Source of the DNA: Clavaria fumosa
Taxonomy: Eukaryota; Basidiomycota; Agaricomycetes; Agaricales; Clavariaceae
Length of the DNA stretch: 64,000 nt
Assembly: GCA_951802425.1 (NCBI GenBank)
Contig: OX637797.1
Span: 1,488,001-1,552,000 of the forward strand
Direction of reading: 5' to 3'
Shown in pieces: positions 41,427 to 64,000 of the stretch (the stretch's first letter is position 1; each line of letters opens with the position of its first letter). Below the pieces are notes generated by a model. It was not told the origin of the DNA. It worked only from the letters and a program-made list of their open reading frames with translations, and did no database searches. Both the position numbers and the translations under genes were made by a program.

Positions 41427-43537
41427 TCAGTGCTTCACCCTTGGTCGCAGTACCTGCTTCTTGGCATCCATGGAAGCCCTCTCTCTAGCCCTGGTCCTAT
41501 ATTGCTTAGACCTCTCCTCCTCCTCTTCATCATGGTATACCCTTTTCCTCTTGGGCAGGCTGGGCCCTGCCTCCTTGTGGATCTGAACTGCCATATGAGC
41601 AACAAGGCCATGAACATCTCTATGCACACCCACATCATCCCACATCCCTTGTTCTCCTGTCCAAAATTCCATTATCTGTATTGTATTTATGCTGGACTGG
41701 AAAATTCTCACCTGGATGTTGCCTGTCATGGTCACCTTCTAACCCATCCCCCTCAATACCATCACCCCTTCGCATATCCACCTGCTTGCTCAGACAGGAT
41801 TCTTCTGCATCACTATCAGGGGGAACAGAAGCCTCAACCCTATCATCATTATCCCCATCATAGATGCACCCTGAATCACTGTCTGACTCATCTGAGCCAA
41901 TGTCCTCACTATGTGCATTTCAAATGTGCATTGATGATGATGATGATGATGATGATAATGATGATATGAGAACACTCACTCAGTACTGATATGGACAGGC
42001 TGGACCTCTCGTTCTTTCCCCTTCTTGAGGGAGAGCCTCTTCACCTCTTTGTCAGATGACAATGATGGCTCTTGTTCAGGTTGCTGGTGATAGTTGACTA
42101 GATGCCTTGATGGCTTCCCTCTCTGGTGCTGTGGGAGAACATATTGAAACCGTAATATTTTCTGGCCCAAAGTCTGTCGGTGATGCAGGAAATCACAGAG
42201 CCTTCTGACATCGACATATTGCATTTTTGAAGGCTCGCGAATTTGCATTCCCTCTGGAAGGTATTCATGAGGAATAAACTTGTGTGGAGCATCAGCTATC
42301 AGTTGCCAAGGGACAGCAACCTTCTTGTTTTTTGTTGTATTGCCTACATGTTGGAAGTAACTTGTCAGACTTGGACTATTGAGCAAGACAGACTCACGAT
42401 AAGTGATAGTAAAAAATGACTGCAAAATTTCTTTGAGTTGTGCGAGTGGTAGGTTGAGTTCCAAAGGAAGAATGGGCCATCCCTCATGATCTGTTAGCAA
42501 ATCCCATGGCACACTAATATCTCTTCCTTTCCTTGATAGCATCTCCTCTTCATCAACAAAAGGCTTCCTTTGTAACTCATCTGAAATCCTGTCAGTACTT
42601 CCCCAACCTTGGCTTCACATCATTTTCTCACCATTCCATGTCTCAGCCAAATATTTATCCCACTCCTCCCACACCTCACAACCAACTTTGTGAAATTGTA
42701 CCTTGAACCCACTAGTCACAGGTCCAGGGGTCTGAATCCTGGAGCATGTATACAGAGAATTAATCTGATGGACCAGTGGGCATGCAATTGAGACTCACTT
42801 TGCCTTCTTTATATTCCCTTTCTCATCTTGCCAGCCAGTCAACATAAATAATTCAACACCCATCTGCTCCTTTGCAAAATGGGCAAACTTCAGGGCCTCA
42901 TGCATAAATTTGCGAGAAGCCAATCTCCAAGCAACATTTCAGCCATTCTACTGGTTGAGAAAGGTAAATTAAAATACTCACTCTCTCTGCACAGGAACTG
43001 GGACAGGCTCCCTATTCCATTTCTCCACCAACCCCATGTATTTCTGATGCTCCTCTTGTGTTAGCTCTTGACAAATCTCAGTCCTAGCACAACGATATGA
43101 GCTGAGGAACTGGACTGATCCCCTCTCAGCATTTGACAACTCCTGGGCCCTGGCATTGATAATCCCCTTCTTGCACTGCTCCACAACACGCTGGAGGGTC
43201 CACCTCTGTCGTTTGCTGAACTGAAGGCCTTGGTTGCCATCATCTTCTGAACCAGAAGACTCCTCCCCTCCACTGACAGCCCTGCGGTTATTGTGGAGCC
43301 AATTGCGAATTTTCTATGAACAGACAAACATCAAATCAACTCAGGAGACACATAAAATGCATAGGTTACGGTGCTAAGATCCTCTGGGACACATTTGTTG
43401 TCCTGCTCAGCTGAATCCTTGATTTTCGCTTTGATTTGCTTGACAATTTTGAGGCGGTCTTTTGAGTTTGCCTGTCTGTAGGCTACAAGACTTTCTGTGA
43501 GTATTTTGGTATACTCTGGGGTCGTCCACCGTGTCAT
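41427..43537 (-). CDS. KDZ-associated protein with Myb/homeodomain-like N-terminus
   Basis: A multi-exon minus-strand gene starting at 43537 (MTRWTTPEYTKILTESLVAY). The first exon joins by splicing to KIRNWLHNNRR, giving a helix-turn-helix-like stretch. Later exons read WTLQRVVEQCKKGIINARAQ, EHQKYMGLVEKWNREPVPVP, SRKFMHEALKFAHFAKEQMG and EVWEEWDKYLAETWNG. A long exon (41,976-42,565) follows with DISVPWDLLTDHEGWPILP and FIPHEYLPEGMQIREPSK. The end is an acidic exon and a basic C-terminus closing at 41427. I recognise it from memory as a type of protein found beside KDZ transposases in agaricomycetes. DNA binding is inferred from the N-terminus only. No frame break was found in the exons I could connect. 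Confidence 0.6.
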
Positions 43538-43635
43538 TTTCTTTGCTAGCCTAACTGATAAAGCAGTGGCATTGTTGGGAAGCAAGAAGTGGTGTGTCAC
43601 GTGAGAAAATAACTTGGCTCACGTGAGTCACTTGT

Positions 43636-43755
43636 CACGCGTTGTGACTGTGACTTGCTGAGGCTGTGCCCGGGACCCCGGGTGTGACAGTTACACTGTG
43701 ACCGTAACTCTCCATAACAATATGCAAAATGTCCTTTGAATATGTGAGCCTTGTG
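43636..43755. repeat. Island intergenic repeat, copy 2
   Basis: GTTGTGACTGTGACTTGCTG, GGCTGTGCCCGGGACCCCGG, GTGTGACAGTTACACTGTGA and CCTTTGAATATGTGAG in the same order as copies 1 and 3. Lies about 100 bp upstream of the minus-strand gene start at 43537. Confidence 0.75.
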
Positions 43756-44141
43756 TATTTTTTTAATGTACGAAATTCCACAGCAGTCACATCTTACAGC
43801 CAGAGTGATGATGAAGGTTCGGCTAACAGTCTATCTGAAAGAGGACTAGTATGTTTAGTTTAAACTCCTATTGGTTACGTGCTTGCCAGCACAGCGGCCT
43901 CAGGGCCCTTAGGATTTTTCGTACCGCCGTATCTGGAGCTTCACGTCTCTCGCGTGAACTCCAGGTATGTGCTATCCTTGTGATCTTTATTACACTACTG
44001 AATACACTACGTCTCTCGTGTGAACTCCAGTCCTCTCGATCCGAAGCCTTCTCTGCATTATATATATACGATATTGCTTCTGAAGTGAAGCAATGGCACA
44101 TTTTGATGCAAAATAACATAGCTTTGCTCATGTGAATTGTG

Positions 44142-44285
44142 TGTTGGGAGATGTGACTGTGACTTGTTGTGGCTATGCCCGGGATTATGGGTGTGACTCA
44201 CACTGTGACCATAGCTTGGCATCAGAATATCCAAATGCTCTTTGAATATGTGTGTTCTGGGTAAGAGGAGAATGTATTGCTATTA
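44142..44285. repeat. Island intergenic repeat, copy 3
   Basis: GTGACTGTGACTTGTTGTGG, CTATGCCCGGGATTATGGGT, GTGACTCACACTGTGACCAT, CTCTTTGAATATGTGTG and GAGGAGAATGTATTGC. Lies about 260 bp upstream of the Ulp1-like gene. Confidence 0.75.
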
Positions 44286-44542
44286 TTGCAGAAACTAGGA
44301 AAAGCTGACTAACGTCAGCAGAACCTTTGCTTGAATATCTTTGCATAAATTTGTGATACAACTATGGCTCACAATTGTGGTACCAGACAATGTCAGATAG
44401 TCATGCTGGTCCACAGGGGTTGTGAACAACGCTGTATTTTCCAAAAGATTACCCACTCATAAAGTTAGTGTGGCTGTGCTGATGCTGTGATAACAGATGT
44501 CACATAGTGTGACTGTCGCATACACTTTTGTCGATATCCACC

Positions 44543-46294
44543 ATGTCTGCCCCAATCATCCTTCCTTGTGCTGCTGTCCGTGTGGGTGGAAACACCAGCA
44601 ACCCCAAATCCTTGGTTGCCTCGTTTCAAGTCCAGGGTGCCATGTAAGTACTTTTGTTCTTGTCCATTCAATCTCCTCACTGAGTTGTGAAAGGGCCGCA
44701 ATGACTTTGACAGGCATGGGGTTTCCCCAAGTACAAGTTCGCTTAGAAAGGGATTCATCAGCTTGTAAAGTGAGTCTCCCCAAACTGCAGGATAGGCGTT
44801 ACTAATGACATTAGATGAGTCACCCTGATAAGAAAGGGCGTCATGTGGTCATGGTCCTCCATGTCAATCCGGTTCGACCTTTGAAACCCCAATTAGCACA
44901 GTTTTGGGGCAAGACTAAAGGTATGTACTTTTGAAAGCTTGCTCCATGTCTGTCTGAGAGGATCTAGGACGGGTACTGTTTCCAAAACTATTTCTCCTTT
45001 TTGACCAAGAATCAAGTCTCTGGAGTCAACAAACATACGAAGCGTTTGTTCAATCTGTCAAGCCTAACTTTCCGGGAGACACATGGCAATATCTTAGGTA
45101 TGTGGCTTGTTTTGAAAGCTAAATTTCAACATTAATGATTGGCAATATCATAAGACCTGAGGAATCCGAAGCTGCATGGGTATCTGGTGGGACAACATCA
45201 GGGTAGATCAATAACCTCATGTAATCAATATATTTGACATATTTTTCTCATTGTAGTGTTGGGAGCACACATATGCTTCTAGGTCCAGTTCAATTGAAAG
45301 ATATTGAACTTGACCAACTCAAGGCTGGTCAATGGATAGGGGGAGATATTGTCAACTTTGCACTTCAGTACGTCAACCAATGTTCAATTGTTAACAATGC
45401 TCAAGGTGGACAGAGAGACATACAAAGCATTGGAAACAGGGGCATCTGGAATATGGCTCGCAAATACATATTTCCTTCCAGTACTGAGGTAATTTCACCC
45501 CTTAATGATGTGGGTGAAAGCTGATCATTTATTAGAAGAAAGGATGGCACCAGAGATATTATCGCATGGCTTCCAGAATCTGCACACAAATGCAGATACT
45601 GGATTATTCCTGGGTTCAGTGAGGAACTGTACGTGGCTGATATCTTGTTGGAATTTATGGGGATGCTATACCTATTACAGGAAGCATTGGTTTACCATAA
45701 TTGTGGCAAACCCAGGCCATTGCTTTCTAGTCGATCAGCCAGATGGTAACTGGGGATGGTGAGTGTACCATTTCTTGCAATATTTTTGGTACTAACATCT
45801 TTACAGTACCATTGTCATACTTGACAGCTTTTTTCGTGACAGGGTGCATTCCAAAGATGCAAAGGCAATCCAAGACCTCTTCCGAGAGCTTGGGCATCAA
45901 CAGGGCCTAAAGTACACCAAGGACCCAAAGGTTATCCAACCAAAGGTTTGTGGCAAATTGTGCAAAAAAGGGTGCTTCATATATTTTCATATGTTCTTGC
46001 TTAGGTTCCAAAACAGAAAAACGGAGATGATTGTGGCATATATGCAATCCATTTTGCAAGGCTGTGGTTGCATGAAGGTGACAGATTAATGGATGTGGTG
46101 CTGGTAATTGGATATTTCTTTTCTTCTTCTAATGTCATTTCAACATCCCTTAGAACCCCTTGATGTCTCAACAAGACATTGAACAAGCATGGAAGTGCTG
46201 GAGGATTGGTGGGCTTCGGACAAGGCTACAAGAAGAGATCCTCACCGTTGCAGAGAAGAGTTGGTTTGAGCATGAAAAACAAAGGATAGTCTGA
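44543..46294 (+). CDS. Ulp1/C48-type SUMO protease-like protein
   Basis: Cysteine protease of the Ulp1 family, which removes SUMO or related modifiers. The C-terminal exons read in phase: GKHWFTIIVANPGHCFLVDQ carries the catalytic His (codon 45685-45687), ILDSFF carries the Asp (45823-45825), and KNGDDCGIYAIHFARLW carries the Cys (46032-46034). The triad is complete. Upstream exons contain HVVMVLHVNPVRPLKP, WSQQTYEAFVQSVKPNFPG and a block of MLLGPVQLKDIELDQLKAGQ. The proposed start at 44543 (MSAPIILPCAAVRVGG) and the first two introns are less certain. The gene ends 258 bp before the KDZ transposase, in the same direction; a SUMO protease neighbour fits a mobile element that must handle host SUMO-dependent silencing. 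Confidence 0.75.
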
Positions 46295-46393
46295 TTGCCA
46301 TTTACAGGCCTTTCTTCTTGTAATTCTACTGCCACTGGAATTTTATTGTATCTTGTATTTGTATTACTCTAACACTTTGCAACATAGAAGTTG

Positions 46394-46534
46394 CATATGT
46401 GAGTTTTTCAGTCAGCCCAATCACATGACACAACACTTTGTATGTGTGAGTTTTTCAGTCAGCCCAATCACATGACACAACACTTTGTATGTGTGAGTTT
46501 TTCAGTCAGCCCAATCACATGACACAACACTTTG
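46394..46534 (+). repeat. Three 47-bp tandem repeats upstream of the KDZ transposase
   Basis: Units 46394-46440, 46441-46487 and 46488-46534. Units 2 and 3 are identical (TATGTGTGAGTTTTTCAGTC, AGCCCAATCACATGACACAA, CACTTTG) and unit 1 differs near its start. The array ends 18 bp before the transposase ATG. CCAAT and CATGAC boxes recur in each unit, so it may set promoter strength or bind the transposase. Confidence 0.9.
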
Positions 46535-46552
46535 TCCACTGCAACCTCCGCC

Positions 46553-49500
46553 ATGCCAATCACTAAACGAAAAGAACATGCCCAGGAGGTTGAATTTGTT
46601 TCAATTTACAATAAACGACTGCGGAAATCCTTTTTGAAGTCTCGAAATGTCTACAAACAACCTGCTCAACCATACAACGTTCTACATAGCAAGCTTTGGT
46701 CTGGGACCTGCTCCAATGATTCCCTACTCCCCCAAACACCCCATAGCGAGGCCAAACAGACTCTGCCCTTTACATTTAATGCAGATGGTGACCCTGAGTG
46801 CATACTGGATTCTGATGCCCAATGGATTTCACATAAGAAAAAGCAAGGAAAGGTGAGGACTCCAAGTTGTTCTCTGTATGCTGAAGTATCTGAAAATGTA
46901 CACATTCAGACTCAGAATGAATTCCTTGAGGATTGGCTTCCTTTAAGAACAGCTTACCTGAGGGAAATCTTGGAATTAGAAGCTCCACCCCCTTCCAAAA
47001 TTTGTCAGGTCTGCAATCAGAACAACTTCAAGTTTCGATGCCGTGATTGTTTCTATCGGCCTGCAACTTGCTCCTCATGCTGCGCCAAATCTCACATCAA
47101 TATCCCATTCCATTCCATTGACGTTTGGAATGGAGTTTGTTTCCTGCCATCTGATCTCCTACATGTTGGACTGGCGATTCACTTAGGGCATCAAGGCTCA
47201 CCGTGTCCAGAATTCAAAGAGGAAGGGTACAGGGAGAAGGATCAATGGGAGCAAGATACCAGAAATGAACCTAATTTGGATAGGCCAGGTGCAAGTCTGC
47301 TTCTAGTTGTACACTCAAATGGAGTGTGCCGACGGAGCATCTATTACTGCCAATGCTCAAATGCTCCTTCCCACCATATACAGCTGCTTCAACACCGCCT
47401 GTTTCCTGCCAGCTATACGAAACCTCAAACAGTGTTCACATTTGAAGTCCTTGGTCACTTCCATATTGAGGCTATGGAGTGTAAAACCTCAGCAGGCGCC
47501 TTTTACTCCAAACTAAAGAGATTTACCTCTAATGCTTTCCCAGACACTGTACCAGTTAGTATCCTCCTTTCCTTTTCCCTCCATTTGTATTGACAAGCTG
47601 CTGGCATTAGGATCGATACTGTGAACTAATGAGAGTATCTCATCAATGGCAAGACTTGACAAATAGAAAACGATTTGGTTTTGGGCATGACTTGGATAGG
47701 AAAACAGGAAATGGGGACCTAGCACTGTTTTGTCCTGCTTGCCCTCAACCTGGCATTAATCTTCCTAACAACTGGCAAAGTCAACCAGATCAGTAAGTCT
47801 TGTTTTCATTGAATGCATGTGAACCCTGATAAAGAAATGCCAGATGGCTTTTCCGCAGATCCCTGGTTGTTGATGGAAATTTCTCAGCAGAACACTTGAA
47901 AATGCGAAGAGCAGAGAAAGATGTTAGGTTAGCAAATGGAGAGGCATATATTGTAGAGGAGGTGAATTATCAACATCACCTCTCTGAGGGCTTAGAGATT
48001 CGAGATGTAGGTGTCTAACTTGGACTGGTCACCTGAGATTCACTCCTACAACAGAAATCAAAATGCTCAAATCACAGGGCTATAAGCCAGTCAAATGCTC
48101 ACTCAAGTCACCTGGAAGCCACGGGAATAGGGGCATGTGCCTGCTCACGGCATGGGTGTTTCGTGCCACATTCTGTGGTTGATTTCCAGAAGGGCGAGCG
48201 GTGAGCTGAAAATGTCTGTATATTTGAATTTGGTTGCAAATACTTGTTGCTTTTTCTTCCAGTCACATCAACATTGACTATGCAATTTGCCAAGCTATCA
48301 AATATAGGACAGAAGGGATGACAGAGACTTTAGTCATCTATGATATCTGTTGTCAGTGGATTCGCAATTTCGACAAGAGGGTCCAGGGGAGCCAGTATCT
48401 GTCTGTGCACCCTTCAACAACAATCATACCTGCAGTGGGTAAATTTCACTTGGGGGCACACATTCGTTCCTGTTTCCCACTGTTCTCCTTGAACTTTGTT
48501 TATGGTGCTGGCAAGATGGAGAGATTTTGGAGACTCTGTGGTCAAACCTGAACAAGGTCTCCAGCAGCATACGGGCCATGAGCAAGGCACATCGGCACGA
48601 AATATTAGACGACTACATGCGAGATTCAAACTGGAAGAAAACAGTGGGTATTGGTGGGTATCAAAATTTTCTAAGCGAATTTGGGATAACTGAATATGCA
48701 ATCTAGTGAAGGCCCTCCTGGCGAAGTACAATGCTGCAACAGAAGGTCTTCGACAAACCAAGATTGCATTCAATGATTTGAATGAAGGGATTGGATCAGA
48801 AGCAAGAGAAGAATGGATGAATTTAGAGCAGATTGCTCTGCAAAATCGAGGGGAAGCCCTCAAAATATACGATATACAACTGGAAAAGAGTGAGTTGATA
48901 TTCCTCACTTCATCACTAGAGACAGAAATCTGAAAATTTCAATATGAAGCACCAACTCTTGCAGATATCAGGCTAACTCTCTCAGCTAGGGAAAAAGAAA
49001 CTGGAGTACCTTCGGGGATTACATCATTCCTGACTCAAGGCATGGATCTGGAACATATTCAGTAAGTGACATCCAAGATGCTAAGCCTACACACATGCCA
49101 ATGAGCCTCCAGATGTTCAATTGACCTAACCCGGAAGAGGAGACTCACAGCAGCTCAGAAGCAAAGCATTATTGATAAACAGAATGCACTTCAATCCAAA
49201 ATTGAAAATTTCAACCAACGAGTCTATACTGTTCTGGGAGATTTCGAGTGGGATGACCAACACCAGGAGACCATGCCAGAAGACACTGGACCTAGAGAAG
49301 AAACACAGGATGATCCTCAAGATGGTGACGTGGAAGACCTGGACATGGACGAGCAGAATTTCATACAGAACAGGCTTTGGATGCCTTCTATGTTTGGCCA
49401 TGACTTCTGCTTGAAAAATGGGTGGGAAAAATTTGTGGATCAAGAAATACAGCTGCGGGTGGTACAAGCAGAGGAGTCACTTGAAGGGCTCAGACTGGCA

Positions 49501-50149
49501 ATCGGACACAAGTCGTTGCTTTACAAGATACGAATTCGAAAATCCAAAACCCAGGCAAGCAAGACCAGGAGCCGCTCAGAACTCCTCCAAGTGAATGACA
49601 AGATCAAGGAGTATACTGGGAGGTACAAGTGTGCTAGGTCTGCCTTGATAAGCCTGGGAGCACCTGCACATGTACTTGAGAAGTTTCAAGTTCTCCAAGA
49701 CACGGACTTGAAAGTTAACACAGATGTGGCAGAGGAAAACCGGATTGGGCAGCAAAATGATGCATTACCCTGGTTCTGGAGGATTGGGACTGGGGGGAAT
49801 GCCGGGAACCCTTTGATGAATGAAAGTGAGTTCTTCGATATGTTAGCTTCCTCATATGTTTCTATGCTGACTGAAATAAGTATTGAGGGTGAACTGGCTG
49901 AGAGCAAAGGCTCGATATGACAGGTGGGAAGAAGAGATGTTATTGGTGAGACACGAAATGACATGGGCATTGGCATGGTATTCACACCAACAAAGGGAAT
50001 GGGAGAGGAGGAGAGTCTGGGCAGAAACACAGTGCTTGCATGGTCACAGAAGCTATGCTGAGAAGCAGGCTATGGTATGGAAGTGGATGAAGGAGGCTGC
50101 ATCTACTGCCTGGGGTGATATTTTGAGTCTACCACAAGTCAAATCTTAG
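46553..50149 (+). pseudogene. KDZ (Kyakuja-Dileera-Zisupton) transposase, one frameshift
   Basis: Cut-and-paste DNA transposase of the KDZ class. Exons 46553-47554, 47611-47792, 47859-48006 and 48055-48200 are clear, and 48263 begins the fifth. A CxC2-type cysteine cluster lies at about residues 147-185 (CQVCNQNNFKFRCRDCF, CSSCCAKSH). The first catalytic Asp is in VVDGNFSAEH (47872-47874) and the second in YDICCQW (48342-48344). The cysteine-rich KSKCSNHRA and GIGACACSRHGCFVPHSVVD segments sit between them. The third acidic residue should follow in a GEILETLW-like motif, but the frame breaks at about 48,515-48,522: EILETLW is present in another frame. Downstream helices (WMNLEQIALQNRGEALKIYD, LPWFWRIGTGG, WLRAKARYDRWEEEM) run to 50149. 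The gene is nearly whole, so decay or a sequencing error are both possible. Confidence 0.85.
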
Positions 50150-50260
50150 CTAGCCACATCAATTGTGGGGATACAAAGCACTGCAATTTCACCCAGACAG
50201 AAGCTCTTTTCCTGGAGTTCAGCAACAGTGATGAAGTGACCAGTTTCTATATAAATGTAC

Positions 50261-51436
50261 CTAGGTCAACAATTGCATGTACGTATTTTGAGTTGGGTAA
50301 GTTGGTCGTGGTATCTGTAGACGGTCATGAACAGAATCTTTCATGAAATGAGCAATGCACAATCGTTCGCCACCCTCCCAATCCATCACTTCATGCAGAA
50401 AAACTTTACCTGCAAATACAAGGACAGTTCCAGGATTGTAGGCAAATTGACCACCAAGTTCCTGGAGTGTCATGTATGCCTGCTTGTGAGTTCCAGCACT
50501 AACCAAAAGATCGTAGTGAGCCAGGCAGCCTCCCTTGTCGCGATGTGCAGGAGTCTTCCTGTTCACGATGACTTCCATTGCCGTAAAGATTGAGGGCCAA
50601 AGCTGCACATTCTTGTATGTTTTTGCCATTGCCACCCCAGATTGCACTTGGTCAATGGCTGAGCTCCCAAAGTCATATTGTTCTGGTGCGACCAAGGCCA
50701 TAATTGAATTGCACAGCTTCTCTGCATGTGCGATTCCTCGAATGAAGGAGGAACCATATGCAGTCTGCAAGCTGGTCGAAGCATGCAGTTTATCACTGAG
50801 CTGTTGACATTGAGACAGTAAAACAAGGTAGTTATGTGACAGCATTACCTGTTGCTGGCCTTGCATAAACCAGCCAGGAGAGAAGGACTTGATTCCGGCA
50901 CCAAAACGACCTCCGCCTTCAGGTTCGACAAGTCCCGTAGTACGCCTAGCATTACTTGGCAAGTCTCTGTCCAGATGCTTGCTAATGTGCTCACACCCTC
51001 TGTTGTACTGCTCCTGTAAATTGGTTAGAAAATATGGTTCAAATTTGATTGCCTTATCTCACCACTCTAGCACTAGAAAGAATTCCAGGCAGAGCCCACA
51101 GCAAGATACGACCGTGCTTATCAATTATTGTGCAGGGTTCCTCTTGAACACCGAGGTCTTGAGGCTGCTTGAAATACTTGCTGAATTTCACCAAGGCTGC
51201 ATCGAAATTATTGCTGCGTTTGGCTATGAGATTGATATGTTTCACACTGTCTGCAAACCGATCTATGTCCCATTCCGTTTGAACTGAATGGTCAAAGTGT
51301 TCAGCTGATTGTTGCAAGTCATTTAAGCTAACGCACTTGGGTTGAAGAGGGCATAGGCCACAGTTAGAACTACACGTTGTAGTTCTTCTTGAGTCACAGG
51401 TTGGTCGTCAGCATTACTCTCGTTGCTGGAATCCAT
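50261..51436 (-). CDS. TET/JBP-family 2-oxoglutarate/Fe(II) dioxygenase
   Basis: Predicted nucleic-acid 5-methylcytosine (or thymine) oxidase. Minus-strand exons start with MDSSNESNADDQPVTQEELQ at 51436. They join IQTEWDIDRFADSVKHINLI and LPSNARRTTGLVEPEGGG, and then the catalytic exon. Motifs: MEVIVNRKTPAHRDKGG with the metal-binding HxD (His codon 50543-50545, Asp 50537-50539), YDLLVSAGTHKQAYMTLQEL, FAYNPGTVLVFAGKVFLHEV with the distal His, and GGERLCIAHFMKDSVHDRL with the 2-oxoglutarate-binding Arg. The spacing and the PGTV..GK..HEV..GERLC pattern match basidiomycete TET/JBP proteins. All catalytic residues are present and the frame is open. It lies tail-to-tail with the KDZ transposase, 111 bp away. 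TET/JBP genes are known to travel with KDZ transposons in basidiomycetes. Confidence 0.85.
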
Positions 51437-51823
51437 GGCAACTCTCAATTCCTCAAGTTCGCCCCAAATTTTCAACCTTCCTTCAATTTTAGCTGGCTTA
51501 ACAGGATTAAAAATTGATGACTTGCCTTGTCTTGAGTGGCTTTTGCATTTTATGAGTTATGTGCTTGCATATCGTAGTGCGTAAGAGGCTCCACATGGTG
51601 CCTTTCAAAGTAGATGGCCTTGGGTGGGCATTAGACATCAACTCAGCTCAGTTAGACGATACATACGCATCACAAGGAGCATAATTGGTCCTCTTGTTTG
51701 AGCCAGATAAGTCAGTCTCTTGATGCTTCCTTTTGGCCATTGGATGAGTTGAATTCGCAAATCTATGTTAGGGGGTTTGACAGTCAACAAGGTCACATGA
51801 CTCCTTTTTTTTCTATTCTTCTT

Positions 51824-51976
51824 TTGAATCAGCATTTATATACTGCAACATTGGCAAAGACAAAGATGCAGTTGTACGTATGGTACATATTTATGAGATA
51901 AAGGATGAATTGGGGACAGAGGTATGTGGCATGGGTTTGTAGGTTATATTGCCATCATTTAGTGTGGGTCAGGCGG
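51824..51976 (+). repeat. 153-bp direct repeat, copy 1
   Basis: TTGAATCAGCATTTATATAC to GTGTGGGTCAGGCGG, near-identical to 52630-52782 (a few base changes, such as AGATGCAG/AGACACAG). Confidence 0.9.
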
Positions 51977-52282
51977 GTTTGTTGGGTATGATGCAGTATC
52001 GAAGAGGTTAAGGCTGGGTAGTTCTGGTGGGATAGGGGGTTTGAGCGGCTCTCCAGTTGAGGTGAATACTCCGGAGATTCGTAAGAATTTCGCGATGGCG
52101 AGTAGTCCTTTGGTACCGCTGAGCGGGATTGGCGGAGAGTGGTCGCGATGCACTTCCGATAGTATGTGTTGGTGTTCGTCGTATGCTCGGCAATTATGGA
52201 ATATATGGTCTATGTATCTCGTCGCTGGAGTTGTTGGGATCGTGTCTCTGCAGAGGCATTCGGGCTCGTGAGGTATTTTCAT
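51959..52282 (-). pseudogene. LINE (non-LTR retrotransposon) C-terminal remnant
   Basis: 107 codons on the minus strand resemble the extreme C-terminus of fungal LINE pol proteins: a Cys-x-Cys start (ECLC), DHIFHNCRAYDEHQHIL with the typical HxxxxC, then LSGTKGLLAIAKFLRISGVF and a TSTG ending. No reverse transcriptase is nearby, so this is a 3'-end fragment, as 5'-truncated LINE copies leave. Confidence 0.6.
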
Positions 52283-52782: not shown

Positions 52783-52833
52783 TTAGGTCAGATATCCATG
52801 TTCCTTCATACGTGAAGGAACAGATGCTTTACA

Positions 52834-54410: not shown

Positions 54411-54879
54411 TGCGAGGGGGATAAGCACTAAGAGAGAGTGAGGGTCATGCATATATAATGTTTTTCAGATCACCTTGACTACAACAATACAAGACTACAT
54501 CTCTTGAATAGGGGAGGTTCAGTCGACAGTGGTACCACACAACGATTAGACAGAGGGGAGAACAAGGTGTGAAGCGACAAGAAGGAAGTTTCTATAACTA
54601 CCAGGGTAGGCAAGTACAATGATTGGACAAAGGGGGAACAAGACATGTTCAGACCAGGAAGGACTACTGTATGTGTAGTTACAAAGGCACAACAAGAATA
54701 TATCCAAGGCTGGGACAAAGCATCAAGAGAGCGTGATGAGTGTTGAGAAGGGCTAATGCTCAAATGTTCTCTTGTTTACTTGTGTCTATAATAGTTCTCA
54801 TTCACTTGTTTATAGTTGTCCCTTTGTGTCTACCTGCTCTCCTCTCCTTGTATTTACCTACTGGTGCCGTCGTGCCCTC
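54411..54879. other. Upstream region of the H3-mimic gene
   Basis: About 470 bp without a supportable gene; promoter of the minus-strand gene lies here. No TATA box stands out; a TATATAATG is at 54,451. Confidence 0.3.
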
Positions 54880-57660
54880 TTGGCATTCGTGCTATGGCCG
54901 ATACTTGCAGATACAAGACCTTGTGCATGCCTGCCACCTGCCGCCTGCTCTTCTGCCACTACTTGCCGCCTGCTCCCTGCCATGCTGTCCCGCCCTGCCC
55001 TGCTGCCACTGCTGCTCCCTTTCCCCACCCTGACGCTCTGCTTCTGCCCTGTCCCTGCTGCCACCAATGGCCCCAGTCCCCGCCATTGGTCTGTGACCAC
55101 TGTTGGGGGCTTGGGCCATTGCTGCCGCATGCTGCAGCCGCAGCCGCCACCACTGTCATTGCTGCCACATACAAATGGCGTAAACTGATGAAAAACACTC
55201 CCTTCACAGGATGTGTGATGACAGCAGAGGGTGCATGGCTTCGAAGCCACTAGCCCTGCTTAGGGTTAGGGTTAGGGCTGCAAAACTGCATAAGTTACAG
55301 TATGATTTCTTTATATCATCTTCATTTCAAAAAAAGCGTCAAGTACGAATAATTTACAAGTCTAGTGTAAAACGTATCAAAAAGAAAACCATGTCAGGCA
55401 TTTACGTCAGAGGATGGGTGGCCAAATCCACCTCTGACTAGCCATTCACATCGCAATATATGCTTCATTGCAAAGAGGGCACTGCAATCTAAGCAGTGCC
55501 CCACTTCGCTGAAGCAAGAGTTCCCCAGTCTCGAGTAGATAAAAAAACGGACTTACTGATTGTTGTCCATAAGAGAGGGAATCTGTAAGAAACTGGGGTG
55601 GGAGGACACTAACCACATGGCAGCTAGCAGTCCATCCCGGAGCCCATACGGCAACCCCAAGGTATGAGTGGGGTGAGAGGACGCTAACCACATGGCGGCT
55701 AGCAGTCCATCTCGGAGCCCATACGGCAACCCCAGGGTATGAGCACAAGCAAGGCAAAATCACTTACAATGATGAGGGGTTGGGGGAGGTCGTCTGCATA
55801 ATAGACAACACTCACATCCTTGGCCCAATTGGCCACCCCAGGTGGGTATGAATGAGGGTTGGTTGGGGCCGGCTTGCATCTAAGCTGCCACCAAACCAAA
55901 AGGCCCATACGGCCACCCTCTTCACATAAAATTCTGAAAAACCACATCAACGAGCACCACATCGACCAATAATGAGTCGCATTGGAATACACGCACCTCT
56001 GCAGGTGTCGAGCTAAGAGACACCTGATGACAGACAAGGGCAGCATTCCCTATGCGGCACTGCAGTTGCCGCACAGAGAATGCTGTCCCTGTCCATCACG
56101 AACCATAAAATAGATGTCCCAGGCGGCATGGCAGGAGGCTCGGTGGGCGGGTAGACAGGGGAAACAAGGCGGACAAGAGCGACGAGACGGACGAGAGCGA
56201 TGAGGCGGACGAGAGTGATGAGGCGGACAAGAGCGAGGTGATGGAGCGGAAGACAAAAGATGGTGTGACCATCTTTGTTTGTTTGTTTTATATATAAGGC
56301 GATTCAACATTTGGCTCTGTTTGTTTATATTGATAAATTACACGATCACGTGTTGCCTTCTCACTGCCCTGCTCACTCCTGCCATGCCTCACCCGCTCAC
56401 TCCTCGCTCTGCTGCGTCTGACCCGCTTCTCGACCACCCGCTCTCTGCTCTGCTAATTCCAGTGCACCCAGTGCCCTGCTTCTGCCGCTTAGTGCACCCT
56501 GCACCCTGCCCACACCGCTTAGCACACCCTGCACTCCATCCACAACACCTGGCGCACCCCACGTTCCATCCACACTGCCTGGGCCCTGCATATGCCATCT
56601 GGTGCACCCTGTACTCTGCCTACACCAACCCCGCCTTACTGCCCACTCCCAACCTCATGTCAGCAATGGTGCGTTGTTATCCCATCCCCCTTCTCCCCTT
56701 GCTACTCTTTCAGCCTCACTGCAACCACGGCGGCAGCATCAACGACAACGACAACGATGGTTGCATGGCCAACAACGACGGCGGTGATGACAGTGGTGGC
56801 GGCGGCGGCTGCATGGCCAGTGACGATGACAACGGCGGCAGCAGCAGCGGCCAGCGATGACGACGGCGGTGGCGGCGGCGGCACAGCAGCATGCAGCAGA
56901 AATGGCCCAAGCCCCCAACAGTGGTCATAGACCAATGTCAGGGACTGGGGCCATTGCGGCAGCGGCAGCAGCAGCAACAATGATGGCTACGTGGCCAGCG
57001 ACGACAACGACGACGACAGCAGCGGCCATCAATAGTGACGATCGTGACGGCTGCATGGCCAGCAATGATGACGGTGGTGGCGGCGCAGCAGCAGCAGCAT
57101 TGGCACGGCCAGCAAGGACGACGAGGACGGCGGCGGCAGCAGTGGCGCGGCAGCATGCAGTGATAATGGCCCAAGCCCCCAACAGTGGTCATAGACCAAT
57201 GGCAGGGACTGGGGCCATTGGGCAAGGAGCGGCTGGGCGGAGAGTGGCAGTAGGAGCAGCAGGGCAGGGAATGGCAGCAGGGTGTGGAATGTGGAACCGG
57301 GGTGGCAGCAGGGCGGGGAATGGGTGGGCGACGAGCAGGTCACAGAATTGGTTGGCGACAAGCAGGTCAGGATGGGAAGCGGGTCAGGGATCAGGGACGG
57401 TAGCAAGGCATGGAGGAACAGAGGTGGCAGCAGGGAGGAGGGAGCAGGGGCAGCAGCACGGCGGTGATGCATGACAGATCGAGGGTGGCAGCAGGGCGGG
57501 GAGCGCGACCAGGCAGGGAGTGTGGCAGATGAGGAGCATGGCAGGGCGGGGACCATGGCGGGGCAGGGAGCAGGCTGTTCCCTGCCCCATCAGACACATG
57601 ATGAAGCAGACCAATCAGGGGTGGCGGCAGGGCAGGGAGTGATGAGATGGGGGTGATGTA
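54880..57660. repeat. Fold-back low-complexity region with inverted repeats
   Basis: C-rich sequence at 54,930-55,055 (CTGCC, CCGCCCTGCCCTGCTGCC) faces G-rich sequence at 57,230-57,600 (GGCAGCAGGGCGGGGA). A ~70-bp block occurs once inverted (about 55,064-55,135) and twice direct (about 56,887-56,957 and 57,148-57,220), with core GGCCCAAGCCCCCAACAGTG. Between are GGC/ACG-rich triplet repeats (56,720-57,150), 15-bp GAGGCGGACGAGAGCGA-type repeats (56,157-56,235) and a ~72-bp tandem duplication at about 55,600-55,742. Open frames here are products of low complexity. The layout suggests a fold-back element or a palindromic rearrangement. Confidence 0.55.
55261..55279 (+). repeat. Interstitial telomere-type repeats (TTAGGG)
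   Basis: TTAGGGTTAGGGTTAGGG, three perfect units, followed by CTGCAAAAC. TTAGGG is the telomere unit of basidiomycetes. Located just inside the inverted-repeat region. Confidence 0.9.
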
Positions 57661-58031
57661 ACGCAACAGGGGATGGCGGTGGTCAGGAGGTGGAGGAAGT
57701 CTCCAAGGACAGGAAGGTGTCATCCAGCGGGGACGCCTAGTGCTGATATCGCTGAAAATTGTACTACAAATGACATTATTTTTCTCATGTTACCTTTCCT
57801 TTCATTTCGGAGCCTTCTGTGCTCATACACTTCCATGTCATTAGAGGGAGACCACCCAGATTGTGCTACATTCAGATTTCAAGCAGAAGCACAAGAGCAG
57901 AGGCCCGTGACAGTGTAACAGGTGTGACATGTAACAGTGGGGATCCCGGGCACTGCCACCGTCAATTTCATCCTTTTTTAGTACTTGAATCCTTGTTATG
58001 TACTTGAACTCACTCCCAAACCACACTTTCA
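57661..58031 (+). promoter_or_regulatory. Upstream region of the JmjC-like gene with island repeat fragment
   Basis: Contains GTGACAGTGTAACAGGTGTG and GTGGGGATCCCGGGCACTGC at 57,907-57,955, a partial version of the GGGATCCCGGG/GTGTGACA repeat found at 40,842, 43,636 and 44,142. It lies about 80-125 bp before the ATG at 58032, a promoter-like position. Confidence 0.45.
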
Positions 58032-61000
58032 ATGTCTACTTCGATGAACAAATCCTCTTCCTCGACAAGCAAAATGTCAACTTCAGCATTGCTCACCATC
58101 TTCGATCCCCAAACAGTCTGCACGAGTGCTGTTTTCCAAAACTATCCTTGGTTGACCGACATCATCATGAAGCCTGGACTTCTGGAAAGCAACATTGCTA
58201 CTTGGCTGGGACAGCACCACAACTTAGGAGAGGAGCAAGTTTCCCTCTGCAAGGTTCAATTCAAACTTATAAACTTAGGATTATTTGCTTATCAAAGCTA
58301 ATCGTCTAGTCGATCGCTCAGTCTTTGGATCATTTTGGACCTGGAAGCACGGCACTGAAGAAGGAAAGAGCAGTCAACGAATACTTCCGGGCATCATACA
58401 GTGACTTGGTTAGCAGAGAGAAATGGGAGAAACACGACACATCGGCTCTCATGAGCGCTGCTCATTTCGTTTTTCGTCATGCCCTTTTGGACCGCTTGGC
58501 ATTTTCGATTGTTGAGGCTCCTCCATCCCAGCTAACGCCTTGATCTGAATTGCCTAAGATGCCCAAGAAGTTTAGCGATGTGCATTAAATTTCTTTCCCT
58601 TATTCCAAGTTTCTTATCTTTCATAGTATATTGCTACCATTAAGGATTGGCTCAAGCCCATTGAAAAAGCACAGGGGTCTCAAAGCTTTCAAGCCATGGA
58701 TCCATTGACGAATTCTGCAGTGTATTTTGGCACCTCCCTTCCTGCACACCCTTCGCCAAAGCAGGAACAACTGATCAAAGCTGTAAAGTTCCTTGGTGGG
58801 GGCCTGGAACGAATGCAAGACATCCAGGTCAAGTCCATACTTCTAAACTTTGAGATGATGGCATTTGCCATCACTTGGTTTGGCTTGGTTGGTGTCCAGC
58901 AATTTTTTGGTTGGGAATTATAACTAACAATCTCTCAGAATAATGCCACAGGTTTTGCTGAGTCGACCCAGGACTGGGTCAATATTTTAAATGAGTGAAA
59001 GCAACATAGTTTGCCTTATCCAAATTTCCAACTAAGTTTTTTCACACAGACAATTAGAAAGCGAGGGTCTTCCTCTGTCTTCCAGCCTTGTCTCAAGGCT
59101 CACAGATCCACGTCTTGGCCCGATGCTCTTCGAGCATGTGCGCGGACTCTTCCACTACTGCCTCTCTGTCAGTCCCTTTTTTGCCCTGACAACAAGGGCA
59201 TTTGACCAGTCGCAACTGCGACAAAGTTTCTTGGTATCGGTGAGTGCCTCATTTTTATGTCAGATTGTGTTTACGAAACAGGCAATATAGACTGCAATGT
59301 ACTTGGGTAACGAAAAGCCTGCGTTTTTGGGATTGACGGAGAAAGCACTGTGGAGAGCTCTGATGCAAACAAGCATCACCGGTGACTCATCAGCGGCCCT
59401 GAATGGCTTCCTTACAGAGTTTCAAGACCTTCAGGTGCAGTTCAAGGGGCCAGAAATTCAGATGGATTGGTATTCTCCATCCCGTATGTTATTTTGATCT
59501 TTTCGTCCCTGAATGAAACTGACTGCAAAGAAAGGGCAAGTCCAACGTGTCATCACAGCTCCCGAACCATGTTCCATCGAAGAAGAAGCAGAGCCCATCA
59601 TTGCTCCTGAAGCTGGTCCCCCAGAGCATGTCGAAGACATCATTCCTGCTCTGGAAGCAGATCCCCAGGGCGTCACTTCTGTTCATGAAGCAGGTCTGAT
59701 TGAGCAAACACCAATTTTCCCCATGCTCAAATACGACCAGCAGGAGCTCTCAGACACTCAAGACGCTGAAGAAGCTGAAGGTGCATTGGAGAAGCCACTG
59801 AAACACGAGGTTCATCGTCCAACGCGAAGGGCAGCAAAGAGACTCCGGCATGAATCAGACCAGGAGAATAAGGATGACGAGTTGATCCCCGATGAGGAAG
59901 CTGTGACGAGGAAAGGGAAAGGAAAGGCAACACAGGATACACATGTGGGCCAAGGCAAGACAAAGCCACCTGGACCCATCCACCAGGGTAGAAAGGCTGC
60001 CTCGAAGCCAATTCGGAGTATCATTGACCTGACGGTCAAGGTATGACTTATATTGACACCCCAACAAATGCTGATTGAATTGTTTTATTTAGCATGTAGA
60101 GAAAGTGGAGGAGCTCTCCTCTTTACCCCTCCCCAAGGTAAGCAAAATCTCAACTACTGCGTAATATTTTAATTCACACAATGCAGATGGAGAATCACTC
60201 CATCAAAGTCAAAATGTATGATGCAAATCCTGATACCGAGCCAACCGTCTATGAGCATTTCACGACTTCAGATTCAGTACGTTTAACACTTTTTTTCATG
60301 GATATCTCTCAAAATAAAGCAGGCATTCTGTGAGTATCCTGTCCTAATGGACATAATAGAAATGGTCGAAGAGGAATATGTCAATCAGGTCCCTAAGCAT
60401 CGTCTTCCAACTGCCAGGTCGCGAACATTCCATCCAGATGCGTCTGCGATATTCGTCACAACCTGGACTGAGTTCATGAAGATGACTAGTCTGGAAATTC
60501 AAGAGGTGTTCCGTCATCAACATATTCTTATTACGAATACACCAATTTCAACCCTTGACTTTGATGAGGAGGGATTATCAACATTGGCTCCTCTACATCA
60601 GGAATGTGTGTTCCAAGGTGAGTCTAAAATATTTTTCAAGTTGATTCATCTAAGTCAGCTTCTATAGTTGCAGAGATGCGAAAGCACTCTGATGCAAATC
60701 TGCTCCGCACTGGGACACTCCACGATTTGCTGGAGTCAACACGTGATGTTACAAAACGACGGATTTTGAATGGCCTTGACTTCCTGATGGGAAGCCTCAG
60801 CCTCCCTCCACCACCTCGATTCAGGCATGTCCCATTTGTTGCTCTGACACATGACAACTGAAACAATAACTAAATCAGCGCTTTTGCAACTCATGAGTGG
60901 GCACGCCACCAAACCCAAAAGATGGATGGCTTCGCAAACCAACCTGACAAAGACGACCTGATCTGGGGCATTGCAGCCACTGGTGGGACCATCAGCATGC

Positions 61001-61063
61001 CCCATATTGATGATGTTGGCCTTGCAGTTGTTTCAACTGTCATGTCAGGGTCAAAGTGGTGGG
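58032..61063 (+). pseudogene. JmjC/cupin-like dioxygenase gene, 5' part (split by solo LTR)
   Basis: Starts at 58032 (MSTSMNKSSSSTSKMSTSAL). Exons that can be followed include 58032-58253 (PQTVCTSAVFQNYPWLTDII), 58310-58540 (LDHFGPGSTALKKERAVNEY), 58,630-58,920 (IATIKDWLKPIEKAQGSQSF), and 59,300-59,490. A charged linker with a nuclear-signal-like KRKGKGK region follows (59,530-60,040). Next are DIIEMVEEEYVNQVPKHRLP, RILNGLDFLMGSLSLPPPPR, and finally the double-stranded beta-helix start WGIAATGGTISMPHIDD with the HxD metal ligands (His 61003-61005, Asp 61009-61011). The frame then reads SGSKWWV and is cut by the inserted LTR. The HIDD motif followed by GLAVVSTVMSGSKWW is that of JmjC-like oxygenases known from agaricomycetes. 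Histone demethylation is inferred only. Confidence 0.65.
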
Positions 61064-61310
61064 TGTCACGTCCGTGCCGCTCCCTTCCGGTCCGGACCGG
61101 AAACACGATCTCCGGTCCCGGACTTTCCATCTCCGGCCCCAACCACCAACCTCCGATCTCCGGATCCGACCTCCGACCTCCGGTCTCTGGACCCAGACCT
61201 CCGAACTCCTGCTCTGGTGCCTCAGCATCTGAGGGTACCTGCCCCACATGTGGGGCAGGCACCAAACCCACCTCCGGGGATAGTTCCCCAAGAGGCTGTC
61301 CTGATCCCGA

Positions 61311-62640
61311 CAATAGTCCCAGCTAGTTTAGTATACTAAATATCAGTTAATGTACCAAAATGCTTTGAACTCAAGCCAGCTACAGCTGATCCTACTAATG
61401 TCAGCAAATGCTGTGAAGGCAGTATACTTATGTCCAGCTAATGCTGACTATACTATTACAGTACAGTAGAAGTCAACTTAATCCAGCAGCTGCTGGTGAA
61501 CATAGTATACTAATCTACAGTAATAACAGCTACAGGGTATTTCCAGTTAACTTGATCCAGCAGCTGCTGATTGTTGTAGTATACTATTCAACAGTAATAG
61601 CAGTCATAAAATAACACCAGTTAACTTGGTCCAGTAGCTGCTGGTTAGTATAGTATACTATTCTACAGCAAAAGCAGTGGTAAAAATATTCCAGTTAACT
61701 TGATCCAGCAACTGCTGATTGATGTAGTATACTATTCAACAGTAATAGCAGTCATAAAATATTGCCAGTTAACTTGGTCCATAGTGCACTTTTACACAGT
61801 AATTTCTGCACACTATGCACAACTTGAGTCTACTATCTGTGAGTGCAGTAGTTACAAGCAGGTTTAATTAACTCAGTTGTAGTACTTGTGAATTGAATCA
61901 TTAATTTGAGCACAGCACTTGTAATTATGATAATATAAACATGGCAATGTACTGCCACAGCTTCAGGAAGTTCATTCAATTTTATATAATGTTTTAATTT
62001 GAGGCCATATTTTGATGTTTATATAAGCTGAATTTCAATATAGAGGCATTTGATAAATATTTGTCTGTATTTGGGCTTATTTATTTCATGTCAATAAATA
62101 CACAGCTATTATGTCTAGTTAACTATTTGATAGCAACTACTGCACTAAGTTCACAGCTCAAGTTAATTAAGTGTGATGTCATGCTATACTAGTATAGTCA
62201 GCAGTAGCTGGATGTAAGTATACTAGTATAGTCAACAGTAGCTGGATGTAAGTATACTAGTATAGTCAACAGTAGCTGGATGTAAATATACTAGTATAGT
62301 CAACAGTAGCTGGATGTAAATATACTAGTATAGTCAACAGTAGCTGGATGTAAGTATACTAGTATAGTCAGCAGTAGCTGGATGTAAGTATACTAGTATA
62401 GTCAGCAGTAGCTGGATGTAAGTATACTAGTATAGTCAGCAGTAGCTGGATGTAAGTATACTAGTATAGTCAGCAGTAGCTGGATGTAAGTATACTAGTA
62501 TAGTCAGCAGTAGCTGGATGTAAGTATACTACCTTTACAGCATTTGCTGACATTAGTAGGATCAGCTGTAGCTGGCTTGAGTTCAAAGCATTTTGGTACA
62601 TTAACTGATATTTAGTATACTAAATTAACAGGGACCACTG
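61311..62640. mobile_element. CpG-free TIR element, copy 2
   Basis: 1,330 bp, the same element as 26414-27844, with near-perfect identity by eye. It differs mainly by having ten rather than thirteen 34-bp repeats. Flanked by the 7-bp target duplication ATCCCGA (61304-61310 and 62641-62647). It sits inside the solo LTR, so it is younger than the LTR. Confidence 0.9.
62188..62527. repeat. Array of ten 34-bp tandem repeats
   Basis: Same unit as in copy 1 (GTATACTAGTATAGTC..AGTAGCTGGATGTAA), ten copies with the same order of CAACAG and CAGCAG variants at the left end. Confidence 0.9.
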
Positions 62641-63667
62641 ATCCCGATTCCCAATCCCAATCTCCGATTCCCAAATCCGACTTCCCAACAGTCGTGAACT
62701 GACGTCCATGGTTACTCCACCAGCAACGAACTCCGAGCGTGGAAACCGGACAATCCGCGCAGTTGCTAGGCTGCATAGTTACCATCCTGACGGTAGCAGT
62801 ATCTAACTCCGGGATCAGGAAACTGATCCCCGTCGCTATCCCGTTGTTCCGTAGTAAGTCCTGCGATGTACTGTATCTCCGGGCCATTCTCCGTAACTAC
62901 CGTCAAAACTCCGGGTTGCTGGAAATGCCCCGGACTCGTAGTATATATACCTACCTACTTTGTAGAGTATTCTGCAGTCCGGATACCACCCTCGTATACC
63001 CACGTACACTCCTCCTGTATACCCCTGAACTCCCCTGCACCTCCGTCCCTCCGTCCCTCCACATCTCCGCACCTCCGTACTCCCGTCTGACTCCCTGACT
63101 CCTGTCCCTCTGTCTATCTCCGCACCTCCGTCCTTTCCGCCCGCCACATTGTAATTTGTATCATGTCTAATCCGACCCTCGTCCTCTGTCTCCTACATCA
63201 GTTGTGCTAATTCCTGACTGACCCGACCGACTCCGGACCAACTCCTGACCAACTCCTGACTTCCACCCGACACCTGGAATCTGTCCCGACAGCCCACACC
63301 ATCCGTCCGACCTCCAGAAATCATCTCCGAACTCCGGAACTCCGTATCCCTCCTTCCTGGCCTCCGTCTCCTCTACTTAGTCACTCGTTCAAACCCGAAC
63401 TCCATCCGAACTCTATCTCCACCCTCCTGTCCATCCCTCATCTCAAGTCCAACCCGGACGACTCACCCGAGCACCGGACCCAAGATCCCGAACTCCCACA
63501 ACTCCGAAATATGGGACACCCAGGACTCAGTAAGGGCGTCGTTTCAATACGTTCGCCAAAGTCCCATCCGAACCCCGAAGTCCACACCCGGACACCCCGG
63601 ACACCCCGGACCCGAACTCCGAACTCCGGCCGGACTTCACCCTGACCCTCCGAGCATGCACGTAACA

Positions 63668-64000
63668 GTGGGTGGTGATGCGCCGCCGTACAGACGCAGA
63701 AGACTACGACTATCACGGCAATATCTTTTCGACGCATGCCTTCCCCCTCAGTTGGGGTGATTGTAGCACTGGAAAAGAATTTTTATGTGCGGAGGCTATA
63801 CACCTGAAGACAGGAGATATTTTGTGAGTTGCAATAATTATCACGTGCAATATTTACTGACAATCCTACAGTTTCATGCGTCCTGGCACACTCCATTTTG
63901 TGCTTGGCCCAGAGCTGACGATTGTTTACAGCCGGCACTTTTATTCCGCATCCACGATAGCTCGCAGCTGTGCTTCAGCCCTGCATACGTTTGTGCTCAA
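63668..64000 (+). pseudogene. JmjC/cupin-like dioxygenase gene, 3' part (runs off the window)
   Basis: Continues the gene cut at 61063. Reading from the target site: VVMRRRTDAEDYDYHGNIFS, FPLSWGDCSTGKEFLC and AIHLKTGDI, then an intron (63829-63871). Next is FMRPGTLHFVLGPELTIVY with the distal metal-binding His (about 63,894), and SRHFYSASTIARSC. These are the C-terminal strands of the JmjC-type fold. The gene continues past base 64,000. Confidence 0.65.

Follow-up and report, generated by a model that had tools for sequence, protein, structure and literature searches.

A giant KDZ transposon of Clavaria fumosa carries a copy of the histone H3 tail within a conserved chromatin-related cargo

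In the genome of the agaricomycete Clavaria fumosa, a stretch of 64,000 nucleotides (assembly GCA_951802425.1, contig OX637797.1, positions 1,488,001 to 1,552,000; hereafter the window) was found to run into a complete giant KDZ (Kyakuja-type) transposon, in which genes for a TET/JBP dioxygenase, a JmjC-like oxygenase and a Ulp1-type SUMO protease stand beside a gene whose protein begins with a copy of the histone H3 tail. With moderate confidence, we propose that a large clade of mushroom KDZ elements encodes an H3 tail, free at its N-terminus and joined to an H3K4-reading PHD finger, and that selection has kept it across the element groups within a kit of TET, JmjC and Ulp1 proteins; mobile DNA would then counterfeit the very tail of the nucleosome. 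The best explanation of the whole, which we hold to be probable, is a giant transposon of the Kyakuja branch with a conserved chromatin kit that counters silencing. The 48.8-Mb genome is in 17 contigs, of which C4 contains the window, and every count given below comes from this one genome.

Results

Boundaries and copies of the element

The ends of the element were located by aligning the window plus flanking sequence to itself and to a second copy on contig C1, leading to the following features (window numbering):

40138..64000 in the window and on to 74281 (L016, L017), plus strand: giant KDZ transposon, 34,144 bases
40138..43784: left terminal inverted repeat, 3.65 kb, beginning CACCCCCTTCAG
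40131..40137: left target-site duplication, CGTGGGA; right copy TGTGGGA at 74282-74288, beyond the window

The element passes the right edge of the window by about 10 kb. A first-pass annotation, made from the letters of the window, had placed the start of the island at 41427, which was wrong, since the element spans 40138-74281 and has its right end outside the window. Its suggestion to look for terminal inverted repeats (TIRs) and target-site duplications (TSDs) around the whole block was fruitful: 3.65-kb TIRs and 7-bp TSDs bound it. The right TIR (70657-74281) is 99.07% identical to the left one (BLAST alignment, 3648 columns), the termini are of the 5'-CA..TG-3' type (CACCCCC...GGGGGTG), and an element-free relative of the target lies at 79661-80291, where CGTGGGA is present once.

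A genome search with the terminal repeat gave 71 rows from 40 scored candidates out of 197, so that the copy numbers are lower bounds. According to this search, 28 of the at least 71 rows cover at least 2984 of the 3647 bases at 95-100% identity, and near-complete and split rows together form 13 inverted pairs, nine of them spanning 25.8-26.8 kb; the window copy measures about 25.9 kb without its two later insertions. Both flanks were examined for six of the 13 pairs, and the outer ends were readable in five, all of which showed a 7-bp duplication. Three duplications were perfect (TGGTTGC, TCTGCAT and ACTGCGC) and two differed by a single C/T change at a CpG (CGTGGGA/TGTGGGA in the window and CTTGTCG/CTTGTTG on C1). 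The sixth pair (C2:2286762), one repeat of which is without its first 17 bases, was left unscored. Two shorter inverted pairs (C10:64666-73486 and C1:3227889-3237919) share no more of the terminal repeat than its outer 769 bases, part of which recurs every 134 bases; they are possible non-autonomous relatives.

A gene encoding an H3 tail joined to a zinc finger

The H3-tail gene, hereafter the mimic gene, was modeled as follows:

54270..54410, minus strand: exon 1, MARNKQTAQRSTSGRALCIVPG..., histone H3 tail copy
54040..54213, minus strand: exon 2, PHD finger of the ATRX-ADD/CHD4/PHF21A/AIRE type
53660-53988, 53513-53612, 53332-53464 and 52834-53249, minus strand: exons 3-6, conserved domain of unknown fold with a C-terminal cysteine cluster

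The model runs from 54410 to 52834 in six exons (430 codons, no stop) separated by five GT-AG introns of 47-82 bases. The protein starts MARNKQTAQRSTSGRA, residues 1 to about 18 of H3 being copied at its exact N-terminus, and an intron links this tail in frame to the zinc finger. This is in agreement with the first-pass annotation, which had described an H3-tail mimic with a zinc finger at this place.

The family was then surveyed at 46 loci, chosen by hand and not at random, a sample smaller than half the 116 family places that entered the clustering; groups F1-F8 were assigned from search identities and first-exon sequence. An H3-like start was read at 43 of the 46 loci, in seven sequence groups, with other starts such as MARTKQTPKKSTGGRALR and MARTKQTAKTSTG. 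The group starts are MARNKQTAQRSTGGRALRI in F1 (19 loci), MARTKQTPKKSTGGRALRV in F2 (5 loci), MARTKQNPKKTTGGHSIRV in F4 (6 loci) with MARTTQTPKKTTGSHSVRV in F4b (3 loci), MARTKQSAKRSSGAPAMRA in F5 (1 locus), MARTRQSAKRSSGACATRV in F6 (4 loci), MPRTKQSASRSTGAPCVRV in F7 (4 loci) and MARTKQTAKTSTGSPSVRI in F8 (1 locus). Single copies deviate from them: in F1, copy L044 has a stop at codon 2, the alanine codon is missing in L044 and L045, and L068 has glutamine in place of R2. Excluding the tail, F1 and F2 share 57-61% identity, and F4 was absent among the genome matches of the F1 protein. Identity to F4 in the matched pieces is about 44-47% for F6, 37-50% for F5 and F7 and 23-33% for F8.

In H3 numbering, R2, Q5, G12 and R17 are invariant in the representatives of the seven groups, and the K4 position is a lysine in 36 of the 43 tails. 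The K9 place is occupied by arginine or threonine in five of the seven groups, and a lysine stands one position earlier in five of seven. The residue after the methionine is alanine or proline in all seven representatives, and leucine is found at position 21 in five of seven. An initiator methionine before alanine or proline is usually removed, which makes a free N-terminus probable.

Likeness to H3 by chance was rejected on the scores obtained in the window frames and after shuffling. The window tail scores 43 against H3, while the runner-up among the 1178 methionine-started 19-mers in the window's open frames reaches 19. Residues 2-19 of 12 tails score 40-62 (z 5.6-8.2, 20,000 shuffles each), whereas the tail-less F3 scores 11 (z 2.3). 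The mean pairwise identity falls from 0.67 over residues 1-12 to 0.46 over residues 13-19 and 0.11 over residues 20-40, so that conservation of the tail fades past residue 19; one representative of each of the seven groups was used, F4b and F3 being omitted, and the ungapped comparison of residues 20-40 makes the last value a lower bound. Over 378 codon pairs from the seven groups, codon positions 1, 2 and 3 are identical in 0.65, 0.74 and 0.35 of cases, and 145 of the 215 pairs encoding the same residue use different codons. Conservation of the tail at the DNA level was rejected, as third positions are alike in just 0.35. The H3-like tail is shown by these comparisons to be under selection at the amino-acid level. 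In a blind search of the PDB, a three-sequence profile of the whole protein also aligned with H3 chains without a shift in register, over residues 1-18 to 1-35, with weak E values of 0.7-2.8.

The fingers of F1-F5, F7 and F8 share the spacing C-x2-C, C-x2-C, C-x2-C, C-x2-CH, in which the sixth cysteine varies in F4 and F8. A profile of these seven groups against the PDB retrieved the ATRX ADD domain at the top (E 1.3e-6), followed by CHD4, PHF21A, AIRE and SP140, which are mostly H3-tail readers at unmodified K4. Single fingers matched the Pfam PHD family in six of seven cases at E up to 1, the best being 0.00024. The GATA-like half of the ADD domain is absent from the window protein, where 47 residues with one cysteine precede the finger exon, and the structure of the finger exon predicted from one sequence has a low mean confidence (mean pLDDT, the predicted local distance difference test, 59.7). 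One polypeptide hence unites a copy of the ligand with a finger of the class that reads it, which supports a self-ligand model at the level of sequence profiles.

The tail has a possible origin in the first exon of a host H3 gene, because its likeness to H3 fades near the exon end of one such gene (L049), in which MARTKQTARKSTGG and KAPRKQLASKAARKTA lie on separate exons; a second host H3 gene (L050) has an intron after MARTK. Protein searches with the 430-residue protein or with alignment A1 gave no homologues outside this genome, from a database poor in intron-rich genes, so that this negative says little; a control search with the CxC2 frame returned 15 proteins, mostly shorter pieces on short contigs. 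Scans of viral and prokaryote contigs gave no homologues of the mimic either. The middle of the protein (53250-53612, minus strand) contains the histidine/cysteine motifs NHSHDDTGD and WMMSCG, the cysteine being absent in F3; they may resemble the motifs of caspase/CHAT peptidases (NHSH..DTGD/WMMSCG).

Conservation of the cargo across the element family

Relatives of the gene located in the terminal repeats were searched in the genome (150 of 188 candidates scored). This search gave 25 pairs reading outward, 15-50 kb apart and with no copy between them. Ulp1, KDZ, TET/JBP, the finger gene and the JmjC-like gene are all enclosed by 24 of these 25 pairs, and the remaining one (C5:3521120) encloses Ulp1, KDZ and the finger gene. 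Three groups emerge from the identity of the terminal gene to that of the window: one of 13 pairs (about 95-100%), one of 2 (about 66-73%) and one of 10 (about 48-64%); they differ in gene order. The first-pass annotation had suggested testing whether the set recurs beside KDZ transposases, and within this genome it does so, with all five kinds in 24 of the 25 inverted pairs.

Co-location was also counted without reference to the ends. Within 6 kb of a listed KDZ match stand 35 of 64 TET loci (random-placement mean 2.2) and, in two sets of finger-gene loci, 24 of 48 and 29 of 68 (means 1.9 and 2.5). The JmjC-like gene lies within 15 kb of KDZ at 17 of 70 loci (random mean 6.3) and within 15 kb of the finger gene at 42 of 70 (random mean 4.5). 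These loci include near-identical copies, which are not independent, and no P value is therefore given. All four counted kinds occur together in 25 of 206 clusters. Between paired ends, the full cargo set is the rule, though loci with a single kind are common.

Enzyme and DNA-binding genes of the window copy

Six-frame Pfam scans (E up to 0.1) were run over 41-56 kb and then 56-61 kb of the window, giving, together with the other comparisons, the following genes:

41979..43618 (approximate), minus strand: terminal-repeat gene, two copies per element, one frame being 41979-42614
45225..46290 (approximate), plus strand: Ulp1/C48-type SUMO protease gene
46553..49917 (approximate), plus strand: KDZ transposase gene, CxC2 cluster at 47162-47534 and KDZ core at 48261-48631
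50261..51530 (approximate), minus strand: TET/JBP dioxygenase gene, HRD and distal histidine readable
58008..61065 (approximate), plus strand: JmjC-like oxygenase gene, 5' part, with an HID iron-ligand motif near 61003
63668..64000, plus strand: JmjC-like gene, 3' part, whose distal-histidine exon (63867-64106) crosses the window edge

No match at E up to 0.1 was found in any of the six frames of 56-61 kb or in the remaining frames of 41-56 kb. Two frames matched the KDZ core (E 5.9e-11 and 2e-8), and the CxC2 cluster was matched at E 4.4e-23; in the C1 copy the KDZ core is an open frame (C1:4450332), and 185 KDZ matches were counted genome-wide. TET/JBP was matched at E 1.1e-16, its exon reaching 7.6e-19 and 68 bits for a cut-off of 34.9. 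The spliced catalytic piece of Ulp1/C48 gave E 6.7e-12 and 46.1 bits for a cut-off of 20.7, and histidine, aspartate, glutamine and cysteine of the catalytic set are readable in HW, LDS and KQKNGDDCG, which we take to have these catalytic roles. The naming of the KDZ transposase, TET/JBP and Ulp1 in the first-pass annotation therefore holds, with values above the cut-off or strong Pfam E values (5.9e-11, 1.1e-16 and 6.7e-12).

Two other names of that annotation were kept in part. For the JmjC-like dioxygenase, the gene and its ligand motifs were recovered, while the Pfam score stays below the curated cut-off. Its best PDB matches are KDM7, KDM2A and PHF8 with weak E values of 0.12-0.8 (13 matches, a few of them unrelated), and in these weak matches the ligand positions of KDM7/KDM2A are paired with HID and LHFV, which we assume to be the iron ligands. 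The DNA-binding-like partner is probably the terminal-repeat gene, judging from a match to the GTF2I-like repeat (E 0.0016), a match that lies below the Pfam cut-off. Two more JmjC-like families, about 28-41% identical, have many copies of equal score, mostly subtelomeric (C1, C2, C4-C7 and C10-C14), some of which lie no more than tens of kb from KDZ copies that are likewise subtelomeric.

CpG depletion and comparison with the C1 copy

The CpG-poor character reported at first pass was confirmed, with an observed/expected CpG ratio of 0.37 across 40138-54449 and 0.23 in the terminal repeat, against 1.05 across 1-20000; the 41-61 kb region is rich in TpG/CpA. Decay of CpG to TpG is what 5-methylcytosine typically leaves behind. 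An alignment of the window copy with the C1 copy contains 337 differences over 25,223 bases, of which 299 are transitions and 208 are C-to-T changes at CpG. Because of this decay, which includes both imperfect TSDs, the element is probably a target of methylation, and the TET cargo would have a plausible substrate.

The C1 copy (4433524-4460306, minus strand) is collinear with the window copy at 97.6-98.7% and carries a specific 1.5-kb insertion (4452226-4453746). The two later insertions of the window copy are:

61066..63667: 2.6-kb insertion in the JmjC-like gene, with the 7-bp GTGGGTG at both sides, not in the C1 copy
65052-70656: long terminal repeat (LTR) retrotransposon nested in the giant element, with a GCTGT target duplication, in the window copy only

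The 638 bases at 54450-55087, directly upstream of the mimic start, are missing from C1 at C1:4444513-4444519 (L013). Since the stretch directly before the mimic start is retained in other copies, this gap was read as a deletion in C1, and the lost bases are possibly the promoter of the mimic gene. As for other repeats, an element resembling a miniature inverted-repeat transposable element, with inverted ends of about 150 nt and 34-bp tandem repeats, has two window copies (26406-27848 and 61307-62648) that are 100% alike across 1221 bases, one of them inside the 2.6-kb insertion of the JmjC-like gene. Outside the giant element, 33763-39658 is an LTR retrotransposon with 305-base LTRs 99.7% alike and a gag-like frame with a CCHC zinc knuckle (37699-38703, minus strand).

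Discussion

A proposed chromatin kit and its weighing

In the explanation that we prefer, and in line with the first-pass annotation, the kit would resist or rewire host silencing, which is consistent with the CpG decay, the catalytic residues and the selection on the tail. TET/JBP would oxidize 5-methylcytosine on the element, the JmjC-like enzyme would demethylate histone lysines and Ulp1 would strip SUMO from silencing factors. Once the initiator methionine is removed, the tail would show A-R-T-K-Q like genuine H3 and occupy H3-tail readers. If so, the arginine or threonine at the K9 place suggests that the copy may take K4-type marks while escaping true K9 methylation.

Several observations weigh against this explanation, beginning with its basis in a single genome. 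The decay itself shows that the TET cargo did not spare these copies from methylation. In the window copy, the KDZ core is split across two frames and looks broken, and the JmjC-like gene is interrupted by an insertion. JmjC, GTF2I and single-sequence PHD matches are below the Pfam cut-offs where bits are given; for a piece of the C1 copy, JmjC_2 (E 0.0021) and JmjC (E 0.0031) reach 18 and 18.4 bits for cut-offs of 22 and 24. The JmjC-like gene shows no excess near KDZ (3 of 70 loci within 6 kb, random mean 2.6), and a single kind was found in many of the 206 clusters (KDZ in 64, JmjC in 19, the finger gene in 17 and TET in 13). As for the tail, K4 is not absolute, being replaced by arginine in F6 and by threonine or methionine in three F4b copies, and F3 keeps the finger without the tail at both loci read (L041 and L043). 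Elements of the F3 type carry two finger genes, and the second one (F5) has a tail in the one element that was read at both genes. Finally, neither tail nor finger was found in the 665 bases upstream of C7:1138265 (L089), where a domain of the finger family lies near a TET match (C7:1141126).

The origin of the block could be explained otherwise. It is hardly credible that the genes are a host cluster spread by segmental duplication; the chromatin-related nature of the cargo and the many subtelomeric JmjC-like copies would fit such a cluster, but it was rejected in view of the precise ends, the 3.65-kb TIRs, the 7-bp TSDs and the relative of the empty site. Large elements pick up host genes, and 49 of the 206 clusters hold one cargo kind with no listed KDZ, as would be expected of passengers captured by chance without benefit to the element. 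This is nevertheless quite improbable, given that 24 of 25 pairs, over three diverged groups, have retained all five kinds and that the tail is constrained at the amino-acid level. Domestication of the kit for hypermodification of host DNA (5-methylcytosine/5-hydroxymethylcytosine) or for gene control is an improbable alternative as well. Oxidized methylcytosine is reported to accumulate around Kyakuja elements in Coprinopsis (PMC12730594), in line with such a role, whereas the copies described here are numerous, young and in decay (most being 98-99% alike, with CpG decay), as for a recently active parasite.

Within a silencing-countering kit, the role of the tail could differ. As a first choice, we tentatively consider binding of the tail to an H3K4-type PHD finger, either that of its own protein or that of a sister protomer, which would make a gated or self-assembling reader, opening on nucleosomes with unmodified H3K4. 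The same tentative weight is given to a decoy or recruiter for host H3K4-directed readers or LSD1-type demethylases, and it is unlikely that neither the own finger nor host readers are involved. As a reading of the whole, action in trans is possible but rather doubtful. Here, the tail would be a competitor of H3 residues 1-20 at a demethylase of the LSD1/KDM1 type or at host readers of H3 unmodified at K4 (H3K4me0), recruiting or blocking them. Snail/GFI1 SNAG tails mimic H3 for LSD1/KDM1. Conservation extending to residue 19, with leucine 21 in five of seven groups, is in favor of this role, as PHD fingers usually read less, and so are the alanine or proline behind a methionine that is by rule probably removed and the four invariant residues. 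On the other side, six aligned tail-bearing groups have an H3K4me0-class finger in the same protein, which would be needless for a pure decoy.

Comparison with known systems

The finger of the mimic resembles those of ATRX ADD, CHD4 PHD2, PHF21A and AIRE PHD1 in its sequence profile, and differs from them by an H3 tail copy in the same protein and by the lack of the GATA-like half. Viruses and host SNAG proteins also present short H3-tail-like peptides on non-histone proteins. In contrast, the present copy is encoded by a transposon, stands at the exact N-terminus and is kept over seven groups in many copies. A transposon-encoded H3 tail or histone mimic was not found among the results listed in searches of open-licence PubMed Central papers, and this would be the first one as far as such searches reach. 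Transposons bearing TET are known in fungi. With an H3-tail copy conserved here alongside TET, JmjC-like and Ulp1 genes, the idea that such epigenetic cargo counters silencing becomes directly testable with peptides and single domains.

KDZ or Kyakuja elements are mentioned as repeat classes in PMC8290104 (with TIR motifs in its supplement) and PMC7473861. The Cryptococcus elements KDZ1-3 (PMC12810828) are active and resemble the present element in a KDZ transposase with a CxC cluster (CxC1), in TIRs and in TSDs (4-8 bp). They differ in their length of 9.2-11 kb and in TIRs of 139-241 bp, and no domains other than KDZ and CxC1 are mentioned in the passages on them. Element-encoded factors that counter silencing or modify marks include the regulator of plant Vandal elements and the SET genes of HarbingerS/MuDR, as named in the introduction of Kojima (2025; PMC12730594). 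They are alike in interfering with epigenetic control, but the proteins are different and none is described there as a histone mimic.

The closest relatives are the TET-bearing Kyakuja-1_LB and Kyakuja-2_LB of Laccaria bicolor, for which 7-bp TSDs, CA..TG ends and no TIRs are reported and an escape from methylation is argued (Kojima, 2025; PMC12730594). None of the words JmjC, Ulp1, SUMO and PHD was found in a word search of the main text of that article, whose introduction and list of references do contain "histone". The present element is similar to these families in KDZ, TET/JBP, the 7-bp TSD and the 5'-CA..TG-3' termini, and our use of the name Kyakuja, provisional to that extent, rests on TSD length and ends. 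It differs from them in its 3.65-kb gene-bearing TIRs and in its H3-mimic, JmjC-like and Ulp1 cargo. Elements of about 26 kb with gene-bearing TIRs of 3.6 kb hence alter the picture of Kyakuja drawn from the TIR-less families of Laccaria.

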